From Christiangramia fulva (GTDB lineage Bacteria; Bacteroidota; Bacteroidia; Flavobacteriales; Flavobacteriaceae), in NCBI RefSeq assembly GCF_003024155.1, contig NZ_CP028136.1, positions 2,914,001 through 2,978,000 on the forward strand: a stretch of DNA of 64,000 bases. The letters are read 5' to 3'. A program made the position numbers and the translations under genes. The notes beneath the pieces are model-generated. The model ran no database searches, had not been told where the DNA came from, and saw only the letters and a program-made list of their open reading frames with translations. Of this stretch, positions 51,507-54,788 are shown piece after piece (position 1 is the stretch's first letter; each line of letters begins with the position of its first letter).

Positions 51507-52411
51507 TAAATCAAAAGATTTTTGCTGCAATCGATATAGGTTCCAATGCTGTGCGTTTATTGATCTCTACGATCACTGAAAAAAAAGGTGCGGAAACCAA
51601 TTTTCGCAAAACCTCTCTCGTTCGCGTTCCCATTCGCCTTGGAGCAGATGTTTTTCTGAAAAAGAAGGTTTCTGAAAAAAATACACAGCGTATGATCGAT
51701 ACCATGCAGGCTTTTGGTCTGTTAATGAAGTCACACGGAGTAGAAAAATATAAAGCTTGCGCTACCTCGGCAATGAGAGAGGCCGAAAACGGAGAGCAGA
51801 TCGCAAAACTCATCAAGGAAAAAACCGATATTCAAATTGAGATCATTGATGGCACGCATGAAGCCGCGATTATTGCAGCTACAGATCTGCATGCACTCAT
51901 TCAAAATGACAGTAATTACCTGTATGTTGATGTGGGTGGTGGAAGTACCGAGTACACTTTGTACAGTAACGGTGAAACTGTTGCCTCGCGTTCTTTTAAA
52001 GTAGGTACGGTTCGAATGATGGAAGACCTAGTGGAACATAAGACCTGGGAAGAAATGCAGAACTGGGTAAAAGAAACAACCAAAGATTACGAGAATATAG
52101 ATTTGATAGGTTCGGGTGGTAATATTAACAACATTTTTAAGACGAGCGGTAAAAATGAAGGAAAACCCTTAAGTCTAAAATACCTGAAAGATTATGATGA
52201 AAAGCTCAATTCTTATACCTACGAGGAAAGGATCACCGAGCTGGACCTGAAAAATGACCGGGCCGATGTGATCATTCCCGCATCTAAAATCTATCTCAAT
52301 TCCATGAAATGGGCAAAGGCCAATAGAATTTTCGTGCCCAAGATTGGACTTGCAGATGGAATTATAAAATCACTTTACAATACTTCCAAACGACGCAAAG
52401 ACAAGGTTTAG
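51503..52411 (+). CDS. ppx: Exopolyphosphatase, short Ppx/GppA family
   Basis: A 302-residue ASKHA-fold protein with the phosphate-1 loop AAIDIGSNAVRLLI, the phosphate-2 region YVDVGGGSTEYTLY (about 143-156) and IGSGGNINNIF. It hydrolyses terminal phosphates from polyphosphate or pppGpp. It has only the two-domain catalytic core and lacks the C-terminal HD-like domains of about 500-residue Ppx proteins. The gene overlaps ppk by four bases and its stop codon overlaps the convergent miaE stop. Confidence 0.9.
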   Translation: MINQKIFAAIDIGSNAVRLLISTITEKKGAETNFRKTSLVRVPIRLGADVFLKKKVSEKNTQRMIDTMQAFGLLMKSHGVEKYKACATSAMREAENGEQIAKLIKEKTDIQIEIIDGTHEAAIIAATDLHALIQNDSNYLYVDVGGGSTEYTLYSNGETVASRSFKVGTVRMMEDLVEHKTWEEMQNWVKETTKDYENIDLIGSGGNINNIFKTSGKNEGKPLSLKYLKDYDEKLNSYTYEERITELDLKNDRADVIIPASKIYLNSMKWAKANRIFVPKIGLADGIIKSLYNTSKRRKDKV

Positions 52412-52989
52412 CCGTGGATGCTCTCTTTTTTTCCGAGATCTTTCATCACTTCGGCTTCAAAATCCAGTAATTCCTCCCACTTTTTGTCAACTTCTTCGCG
52501 ATCACCATATTTTCTGGCAAATTTGAGGAACATGGTGTAATGATTGGCTTCACTAACCATGAGATCCCGGTAAAATTTAGCAAGTTCTTTATCTTCCAGT
52601 TTTTCTGAAAGCAACCTGAATCGCTCACAGCTGCGAGCTTCAATAAGTCCCGCAATTAGCAGCCGGTGAATGAGTTGAGTGTTTCTGCTGCCTCCTTTTG
52701 GAAAAAAATCTTTCAATTTTAAGACATATTCATCTTTTCGATCCCAGCCCATTTTTAATCCGCGCTCCAGAATTTTGTCATGAACCATCTTAAAATGGCC
52801 CATTTCTTCCCGTGCAAGGGCAGTCATAGCGGTAACCAGCTCAGGGTATTCGGGATAGGTAACAATAAGGGAAATAGCTGTGGAAGCCGCTTTTTGCTCA
52901 CAATAGGCATGATCCACGAGAATTTCTTCAAGGTTCTTTTCCGCAATATTAGCCCATCGCGGATCGGTGGGTAATTTTAGTCCTAACAT
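52408..52989 (-). CDS. miaE: tRNA-(ms2io6A)-hydroxylase (MiaE family)
   Basis: A 193-residue ferritin-like diiron protein. Metal-ligand motifs AREEMGHFKMVHDKIL and VSEANHYTMFLKFAR have the Glu-X-X-His patterns of the two iron sites. MiaE hydroxylates ms2i6A at position 37 of tRNA. The ATG at 52989 gives MLGLKLPTDPRW; a TTG two codons upstream is possible. It follows dnaX by two bases, so it is probably in the same transcript. Confidence 0.9.
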   Translation of the reverse strand: MLGLKLPTDPRWANIAEKNLEEILVDHAYCEQKAASTAISLIVTYPEYPELVTAMTALAREEMGHFKMVHDKILERGLKMGWDRKDEYVLKLKDFFPKGGSRNTQLIHRLLIAGLIEARSCERFRLLSEKLEDKELAKFYRDLMVSEANHYTMFLKFARKYGDREEVDKKWEELLDFEAEVMKDLGKKESIHG

Positions 52990-52991
52990 AA

Positions 52992-54788
52992 TCAAACATC
53001 TAAATCAAAAGTTGCCCTTAATTTATCGATTAAAGGATTGCTTTCTTTTAGTTTTTCATATTTTTCCTGAGGTGTAAAGGCATATTTTCTTGAAGTAGCC
53101 TCATCTACCTTTATTTGAAGGGAAATATGGGTATTCTTTAATTTTTTCTTTAAATATCCCATCATCCGTGGTTCTTCCTTCTGAAGGTCCAGCTTCATGG
53201 TTTCATTTGGAAAAACGAGCTGAATTTCTTTTCCATTTAGCACCGGTGTTTGGGATTCTAAAATTGAAGCAAGTATTTTTTCGCCTTTTTTCTTCAGCTT
53301 TTCCGTGTATTGCTTCCAGTGATGTATCATATCTTCCTCGGTGAAAGCTTCATCCATCACTTTTTCTGCTGGCATGGCTGCTTTTTGCCGCTCGGCTATC
53401 TCCTTTTTTTTATGAATGCTTTTCAGGGAAAGTCCGGAAACTCTTTCCCTTTTTATCTCCGGAAGAGGTGTTTTTTCAGTTGGATCAGGAGTTTTTTGTG
53501 TTTCTGAAGGCTCTTCGTGAGCAGGGCTTTCTTTTGAATAATACTGTTCTTCCTCATCTTTCGCGCAGCTTTCCTGCGCTTTTTTATCTTCCGGAAGCCT
53601 GGTATTCGTATGCGATGAGCTGTCATGCTCATGTTCCCGTACCATTTCTTTTTCTTCGGAAGAAAGGCTAACGGCTTCGGTTTCGAAATGAGAAGCGGGG
53701 ATTATTCCCGGTTTAGACTTTTTTTTTTCGCCATCGAAGCTTATCGAGGCGAGTTGCATTAGGCAAAGCTCCACAAGCAGCCGTTGATTGTGGCTGTTTT
53801 TGTATTTTAGATCGCATTCGTTGGCAAGATCTATCCCCTGCAGCAAAAACTGATAGGAAGTCTTTCGGGATTGTTCGAAATATTTGGCTTTAGTCTGATC
53901 GCCAACCTCAAGAAGATCTATTGTTTTTTCGTCTTTACAAACCAGTAAATCACGGAAATGGGAGGCAAGGCCGGCAATAAAATGATGACCATCAAAACCA
54001 TTTGAAAGTACTTCATTGAATTTCAACAGTAGCTGAGGGATCTTATTTTCAAGAATAAGGTCGGTCACCTGCATATAAGTATCGTAGTCGAGTACGTTCA
54101 GGTTTTCGGTTACGGCCTTACGGCTTAGGTCATTTCCGCTAAAGCTTACCACGCGGTCATAGATTGACAGCGCATCGCGCATGGCGCCATCTGCTTTTTG
54201 AGCGATGATGTGAAGCGCGTCATCTTCGGCATTAACACCTTCGCGTTCAGCAATTTCGGCCAGGTAATTCTTGGCGTCGGTAACGCTTATCCTTTTAAAA
54301 TCAAAGATCTGGCAACGTGAAAGTATTGTTGGGATGATCTTATGCTTTTCGGTAGTCGCAAGTATGAAAATTGCATGTTTTGGCGGTTCTTCCAGTGTTT
54401 TCAGAAAAGCATTGAAAGCCGATGCAGAAAGCATGTGCACCTCATCTATAATATAGACCTTGTATTTTCCCACCTGCGGAGGGATACGCACCTGGTCTAT
54501 CAATTCCCTGATTTGATCAACACCATTATTCGAAGCGGCATCTAACTCAAAAATATTAAAAGCGAAATCTTCATCGGGATTCTGTGTTTCCCTTTGATTG
54601 ATCAGTTTGGCCAGGATCCTCGCACAGGTAGTTTTTCCCACGCCACGCGGGCCGGTGAACAATAAAGCCTGGGCCAGGTGATTATTTTTGATGGCATTCT
54701 CCAAAGTGTTGGTAATGGCCTGCTGGCCTACCACGTCTTTAAAGGTTTGCGGTCGGTATTTCCGCGCTGATACTACAAAATGCTCCAT
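52992..54788 (-). CDS. dnaX: DNA polymerase III subunits gamma and tau
   Basis: A 598-residue clamp-loader ATPase. Walker A GPRGVGKTT is at residues 46-54, Walker B/DEAD-like IIDEVHML at about 113-120, the arginine-finger region TILSRCQIFDFKRI follows, and domain III (collar) ends near residue 350. The tau-specific part (about 355-598) is charged and low-complexity, then a folded C-terminus. The usual four-cysteine zinc module is absent (ILAKLINQRETQNPDEDFAF lies in its place). Codons 354-357 form an A10 run holding A AAA AAG, with a -1 frame stop two codons later, a likely recoding site for a gamma form of about 358 residues. Confidence 0.95.
   Translation of the reverse strand: MEHFVVSARKYRPQTFKDVVGQQAITNTLENAIKNNHLAQALLFTGPRGVGKTTCARILAKLINQRETQNPDEDFAFNIFELDAASNNGVDQIRELIDQVRIPPQVGKYKVYIIDEVHMLSASAFNAFLKTLEEPPKHAIFILATTEKHKIIPTILSRCQIFDFKRISVTDAKNYLAEIAEREGVNAEDDALHIIAQKADGAMRDALSIYDRVVSFSGNDLSRKAVTENLNVLDYDTYMQVTDLILENKIPQLLLKFNEVLSNGFDGHHFIAGLASHFRDLLVCKDEKTIDLLEVGDQTKAKYFEQSRKTSYQFLLQGIDLANECDLKYKNSHNQRLLVELCLMQLASISFDGEKKKSKPGIIPASHFETEAVSLSSEEKEMVREHEHDSSSHTNTRLPEDKKAQESCAKDEEEQYYSKESPAHEEPSETQKTPDPTEKTPLPEIKRERVSGLSLKSIHKKKEIAERQKAAMPAEKVMDEAFTEEDMIHHWKQYTEKLKKKGEKILASILESQTPVLNGKEIQLVFPNETMKLDLQKEEPRMMGYLKKKLKNTHISLQIKVDEATSRKYAFTPQEKYEKLKESNPLIDKLRATFDLDV
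53696..53728 (-). promoter_or_regulatory. Candidate recoding (slippage/-1 frameshift) element in dnaX
   Basis: The coding strand has ten A (53728-53719) then G; zero-frame reading is GAA AAA AAA AAG, so the heptamer A AAA AAG, the E. coli dnaX slippery site, is in the right phase. A -1 shift reads GTC TAA and stops. A 7-nt spacer is followed by a small stem-loop, GGGA-ATAA-TCCC with an extra C-G pair (53710-53696). Confidence 0.65.

Follow-up and report, generated by a model that had tools for sequence, protein, structure and literature searches.

A run of ten adenines in dnaX of Christiangramia fulva as a probable transcriptional slippage site, and its spread among relatives

The dnaX gene of Christiangramia fulva contains a run of ten adenines (A10) that has very probably been selected as a recoding site. 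We consider it likely that the run is a programmed slippage site, at which slippage of RNA polymerase would yield both tau and gamma. The polymerase would stutter on A10 to give dnaX mRNAs with 9, 10, 11, 12 or more A's; those carrying 10 (or 10+3n) would be translated into the 598-residue tau, while the others would run into an early stop and give a gamma of about 358-361 residues, which would comprise the ATPase, lid and collar and lack the tau-specific C-terminal part. A single dnaX gene would in this way supply two clamp loader subunits.

Results

The A10 run and its context in dnaX

On the ORF list and Pfam domains, dnaX lies on the minus strand at 52992..54788 of the window (the whole 64,000-nucleotide stretch of DNA that was analysed), with the 598-residue tau as its zero-frame product. 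Pfam recognises an AAA+ domain, a lid and domain III (the collar) in this product, domain III (PF12169, residues 222-349, positions 53742..54125, minus strand) scoring 21.8 bits, below the family cut-off of 24.4. The candidate slippage run, recognised from sequence and conservation, occupies codons 354-357 (GAA AAA AAA AAG; 53719..53728, minus strand), exactly as the initial annotation had described it, and starts five codons past residue 349, so that its placement at the end of the conserved ATPase/collar part also holds. After a ribosomal -1 shift, or with an A gained, the next codons are GTC TAA (stop at 53713..53715, minus strand), which gives a 358-residue gamma ending in KKKV, the Val followed by TAA that had been proposed. 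Likewise, the loss of one A (or the gain of two) reads AGT CTA AAC CGG GAA TAA (stop at 53702..53704, minus strand), which matches the stop placed six codons on and gives a gamma of 361 residues.

Runs of this kind are scarce in the surrounding DNA. On both strands of the 64 kb window the dnaX run is the only one of at least nine A's, against 16.5 matches on average in dinucleotide shuffles. The whole genome (4.38 Mb) holds 103 A9 matches, roughly a tenth of the approximately 1,100 expected by extrapolating the window shuffle rate genome-wide, and such runs therefore appear to be avoided in this genome, the dnaX run being an exception.

Nine runs of at least ten A's are among the matches listed for the genome, the dnaX run being one. 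Two of the other eight, both A10, fall in plausible ORFs, at codon 33 of a 358-residue ORF (L371, G000:C1:2455335-2455344) and at codon 314 of a 378-residue ORF that resembles an integrase (L373, G000:C1:3718604-3718613); one falls in a doubtful ORF (L366) and five lie outside any ORF of at least 100 residues. Downstream of dnaX is a 195-residue gene (52408-52995, minus strand), possibly a MiaE-like tRNA hydroxylase, which as listed overlaps the dnaX stop; the overlap suggests one transcript for both.

Conservation of the run within the genus

The genus set comprised 24 genomes, that of C. fulva included. The initial annotation had tied its reading to the presence of the run in close relatives, to its persistence against synonymous AAG choices and to conservation of the early -1 stop, and in the genus all three are seen: an exact A10 in the same codons is found in 24 of 24 dnaX genes, codons 355, 356 and 357 being AAA, AAA and AAG throughout. 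Lysine is conserved in all 24 genes at 24 alignment columns, of which just the three in the run use one codon throughout; none of the other 21 is invariant in codon (AAA to AAG, 326 to 178). Across the genus alignment, 10 of the 345 degenerate columns with an invariant residue use one codon throughout.

The early stops are maintained as well. In 23 of the 24 genes the -1 stop depends on codon 358, after AAG, ending in T; in the exception (L008) a -1 stop lies two codons later. In 21 of 24 the +1 stop depends on Ile encoded by ATA, a codon used for 217 of 1025 Ile residues in total; in the remaining three it arises from TTA-GTC (L008) or GTA-AAG (L019, L023). Both stops thus outlast residue changes in the genus.

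Spread among relatives

A total of 328 site sequences (326 distinct) was assembled from five sets. The genome-contig set, limited to the best 80 of 594 stretches, is biased to close relatives. The phylum draw matched in 196 of 198 genomes, and all 48 of the same class (own genome excepted) were read together with 51 of the 147 outside it, chosen to spread over families (41) with 10 more from family f16. From the class draw 144 of 146 matches were read, counting the own genome and those shared with the phylum draw; the open frames of the two left out (G328, G233) break off early. The search for the longest run covered 45 nt upstream and 420 nt downstream of the core end.

A run of nine to thirteen A's is present at the site in 277 of the 328 genes (43 A9, 214 A10, 17 A11, 2 A12 and 1 A13), starting a median of 7 codons past the last matched core codon. 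It is found in all 24 genus genes, 71 of 80 genome-contig loci, 46 of 48 genes of the same class in the phylum draw, 103 of 125 further class-draw genes and 33 of 51 genes outside the class. Shorter runs are few, with A8 as the longest in a single gene and A7 in nine, and 50 genes having A7, A6 or none. Elsewhere in the 159 genes with a run and a full core, which cover 270 kb, only four runs of at least nine A's occur, and the run is kept in 21 of 35 genes with a local GC of at least 55%. An origin of the dnaX run by chance is ruled out by the shuffles, the genome count, the codon invariance and the rarity of such runs elsewhere in the same genes.

The base after the run and the codon phase vary among relatives. 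The initial annotation had pointed to the in-phase A_AAA_AAG; this heptamer is indeed present in 24 of 24 genus genes, but outside the genus it occurs in only 34 of 168 distinct genes with tau in frame, compared with A9-A13 in 277 of the 328.

Closure of the non-tau frames

Closure was counted from the codon holding the last base of the run, with a limit of 8 codons. Both non-tau frames are closed within this limit in 174 of 194 genes with tau in frame (24/24 in the genus, 150/170 in the others), leaving 20 of 170 outside the genus where double closure is missing. The null means, from 2000 draws at positions in the same genes whose codons are of a different kind from linker codons, were 0.21 for the genus and 0.24 for the others, with maxima of 0.50 and 0.34. 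The median distance to the stop is 2 codons in the -1 frame and 5 (genus) or 4 (outside the genus) in the +1 frame. Furthermore, in genes outside the genus with an IIP motif, Ile is encoded by the ATA that gives the +1 stop in 29 of 29, genes which are related and not independent, whereas ATA accounts for 117 of 416 Ile codons. Judged from these alignments, the conserved trait is the run length together with the closed frames, and not A_AAA_AAG. The +1-frame stop looks selected too, although it would be superfluous for a -1 ribosomal shift.

Two architectures and repeated frame swaps

Tau is in frame, as in the window, in 194 of the 328 genes. In 79 others the zero frame meets a stop no more than 8 codons past the run and the long frame lies elsewhere, so that the zero frame encodes gamma; four genes are unclassed and 51 have no run. 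The window gene was checked for this two-ORF type and does not belong to it, its zero frame being tau. Within the 79 zero-frame-gamma genes, the tau frame is -1 (reached by an added A or a -1 shift) in 72 and +1 in 7, the latter including L048, an A9 in Flavobacterium that could be an assembly error as other Flavobacterium loci have A10, and two genes from metagenome bins (L074, L105).

Both architectures occur within Aquimarina (L034, L044) and within genus g3 (L120, L117). A FastTree phylogeny of 168 core sequences, 157 of them with an architecture label, requires the architecture to have changed at least 20 times and the phase at least 18 times, a count made on a tree without support values or a shuffled-label comparison. 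In genus g2 the swapped architecture looks fixed, with an open frame of 363-376 residues in 9 of 9 genomes.

Stem-loop and Shine-Dalgarno sequences

The small stem-loop that had been noted 7 nt after the heptamer is present (53696..53710, minus strand) and can form in two registers, CGGG/CCCG, which starts 7 nt after AAG, and GGGA/UCCC. It is not conserved, and is probably irrelevant. Folds here are no better than those of shuffles (z -1.09, -0.64 and -0.05). Leaving aside L014, which carries a 3-base insertion, the first register is complete with its four pairs in two of 23 genus sequences, and the second in one, the window itself; the consensus fold of the same 23 has only two pairs, upstream of the run, and no downstream stem-loop. 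The shuffle z-scores and the poor conservation in the genus rule out the stem-loop as a stimulator.

A search of the 24 nt preceding the run for six Shine-Dalgarno (SD)-like strings gave none in 23 of 24 genus genes, the remaining one (L006) having AAGG, in agreement with the initial annotation, which had seen no such stimulator. This absence is expected because, according to PMC9976891, Bacteroidia ribosomes fail to recognise SD sequences.

Discussion

Slippage and its alternatives

Transcriptional slippage is favoured because A_AAA_AAG is not conserved, the +1 stop looks selected and seven relatives have tau in the opposite frame; it also fits a run that is longer than a heptamer needs and that has neither a conserved SD sequence nor a conserved stem-loop. 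Polymerase slippage over ribosomal shifting as the main route is what we infer from sequence, as are the amounts made and the role of gamma here. The initial proposal that the organism makes tau and gamma thus stands as to a selected recoding site at the collar end, while the conserved element and the mechanism are revised, the latter toward transcriptional slippage.

A translational -1 frameshift of the E. coli type on A_AAA_AAG, acting without slippage or beside it and with the stop one codon on as the end of gamma, appears rather unlikely. For a ribosomal -1 shift, a 7-base site and the -1 stop would suffice, usually with the help of stimulators. The heptamer is in phase in the window and in every one of the 24 genus genes, the -1 frame closes sooner (after a median of 2 codons, the +1 frame taking 5 in the genus and 4 elsewhere), and A_AAA_AAG is commoner where tau needs -1, occurring in phase in 37 of 72 such genes versus the 34 of 168 with tau in frame outside the genus; a G directly after the run shows the same excess (55/72 versus 57/168). 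These excesses in the -1-tau genes may reflect a ribosomal share, or only shared descent. However, just one of 24 genus genes has an SD-like string, the hairpin is not conserved, the heptamer is scarce outside the genus, the +1-frame stops look selected and seven relatives need the opposite direction. Moreover, A8 is nearly absent as the longest run (1/328, with A7 in 9), although 7-8 A's could hold the ribosomal heptamer. The varying codon phase of the run alone is not decisive against ribosomal shifting, since every run of at least nine A's holds an in-phase A_AAA_AAA or A_AAA_AAG.

That the site is simply a lysine-rich linker, with the A-run a by-product of AT-rich codon usage, agrees with its position at the start of the linker and with the preference for AAA at Lys codons (888 of 1372 in the genus genes), but is very improbable in view of the codon invariance at exactly the columns of the run, the four other runs of at least nine A's in 270 kb of 159 genes, the retention of the run in 21 of 35 GC-rich genes and the 79 genes in which the zero frame cannot yield tau without a shift. 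Replication slippage that switches between tau cells and gamma cells, that is, phase variation, would suit the differing run lengths among relatives (A9-A13), and homopolymers of about this length can mutate; it is barely credible given that all 24 genus genes have exactly A10 and that the swapped architecture looks fixed in the nine genomes of genus g2, and a contingency locus would be unexpected in a replication gene. We give equally little credit to a splitting of the gene in the zero-frame-gamma relatives, with a C-terminal ORF that has its own start. Both ORFs are open, and some ATG, GTG or TTG follows the run in the tau frame in 78 of 79 genes, the nearest at 4 codons; the first possible start, however, lies a median of 46 codons past the run. 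In 17 of the 79, an IIP motif also present in tau-in-frame relatives is encoded in the tau frame no more than 12 codons from the run; in 17 of 17 no ATG, GTG or TTG comes between run and motif. Because of these two observations the two-ORF product is most likely a fusion and not separately started, and gene fission is unlikely.

Relation to known systems

Transcriptional slippage in Thermus thermophilus dnaX was reportedly described by Larsen in 2000. Slippage of the Thermus type is marked by mRNAs with variable numbers of A's, and by gamma and tau both being made, at about 1:1. The Thermus gene, as described in PMC1088944 and PMC5009743, has nine A's with stops in both other frames and makes gamma by transcriptional slippage. 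The window gene resembles it in having an A-run of about nine or more, tau in the zero frame and early stops in both non-zero frames, such that any indel other than 3n would lead to gamma. It differs in that A10 is the commonest length here, against nine A's there, and in the position of the run, at codon 354 of 598 in the window and seven-eighths through the gene in Thermus (PMC1088944). The likeness of the window gene to Thermus is one of sequence.

In E. coli, gamma arises by -1 ribosomal frameshifting on A_AAA_AAG (PMC5009743, PMC3711429). The window gene shares with it the heptamer in phase and a gamma that ends one codon after the shift. The upstream SD sequence and downstream stem-loop of E. 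coli have no conserved counterparts here, and the run exceeds what the heptamer requires; A_AAA_AAG itself, conserved in the genus, falls to 34 of 168 outside.

Two-ORF dnaX genes have also been described before. Antonov 2013 (PMC3711429) gives 17 such genes from 12 genera, all dependent on recoding to make tau and nine of them with 10 A's, suggests realignment, and assigns all 17 to -1; it also treats a mixed shift direction between orthologs as a mark of transcriptional realignment. These genes have the zero-frame-gamma architecture of our 79 relatives. The present set differs in that tau is in frame in the window, that the shift must go the other way in 7 of the 79, and that the two architectures use a common site. 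If they are not assembly errors, the seven +1 genes extend the realignment argument of PMC3711429. The slippage mechanism (Thermus) and two-ORF A10 dnaX genes (2013, PMC3711429) are already known; what is new here, as far as the literature search described next reaches, is the wide spread, the evidence for selection and the repeated swaps of architecture. A search of titles and abstracts in an open-access literature library found no report of a wide A-run pattern in dnaX.

If the slippage reading is true, gamma made by slippage of RNA polymerase would be a common solution across a large phylum and not an oddity of Thermus. It would also bear on the long debate whether gamma matters outside E. 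coli, because many GC-rich genes retain the site, which has also persisted through frame swaps. In addition, plain ORF annotation in many genomes (for example Flavobacterium) would cut dnaX at about 360 residues, where full tau is probably made.

Relatives without the run

The lineages that have lost the run would, under transcriptional slippage, be natural test cases. The run is missing in 51 of the 328 genes, 18 of these being among the 51 genes outside the class, and 24 of the 51 run-less genes have a local GC of at least 50%.

The most surprising side result is a hairpin in place of the A-run in family f68, the family of genome G249, in which 40 of 41 genomes matched and the best 30 of the 40 were read (L389-L418). 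In 24 of these 30 dnaX genes the run is replaced by GGGC-(3 or 4 nt)-GCCC (e.g. L391:2606-2632), the loops and residues varying (GRSP, GLRP, GHSP, GLCP, GQCP, GRRP, GRKP and others) while the stem is constant. Three more genes have altered but complementary stems, and the resulting 27 of 30 is the informative count, as the hairpin rows were found by pattern and stem conservation is partly by construction. The other three genes have, respectively, an A11 of the zero-frame-gamma type, a run of ten G's, and neither. A similar hairpin is found in L061 (Bacteroides sp.), in L089 and L094 (Bacteroidaceae) and in L109, and by its resemblance to L061, L089 and L094 we call f68 Bacteroidaceae-like. A count of the sequence GGGCGTAGCCC in 12 genomes, 10 belonging to f68, gave 0-2 occurrences each, with dnaX among the hits in three of these; such numbers rule out a dispersed repeat. 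Stops in the other frames within 12 codons, counted in 33 genes in some of which the picker took other hairpins, are present in 21 and 22 of 33, only slightly commoner than the null (46% and 53%).

A broader account, to which we give a little less than even credence, is that dnaX of the phylum is ancestrally slippage-coded and frame-neutral: A10 slippage would supply all frames, the templated frame would hardly matter, and single-base indels after the run would have swapped the in-frame subunit some 20 times, after which the Bacteroidaceae-like family would have replaced the run with a short hairpin of constant stem, as a new way of making or replacing gamma.

Three single genes may be added. 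The ten-G run mentioned above (L415) lies 62 nt past the dnaX core end in a gene with neither A-run nor hairpin, and is possibly another slip-prone replacement. In L338, from a genome of about 0.5 Mb (G242), dnaX ends one codon past the core, and the three forward frames downstream show by eye no tau-like extension; this is apparently a gamma-only gene. In L112, which has no A-run, a single in-frame TAG directly follows the dnaX core and the zero frame is then open through the tau region, the TAG being either an assembly error or a real in-frame stop.
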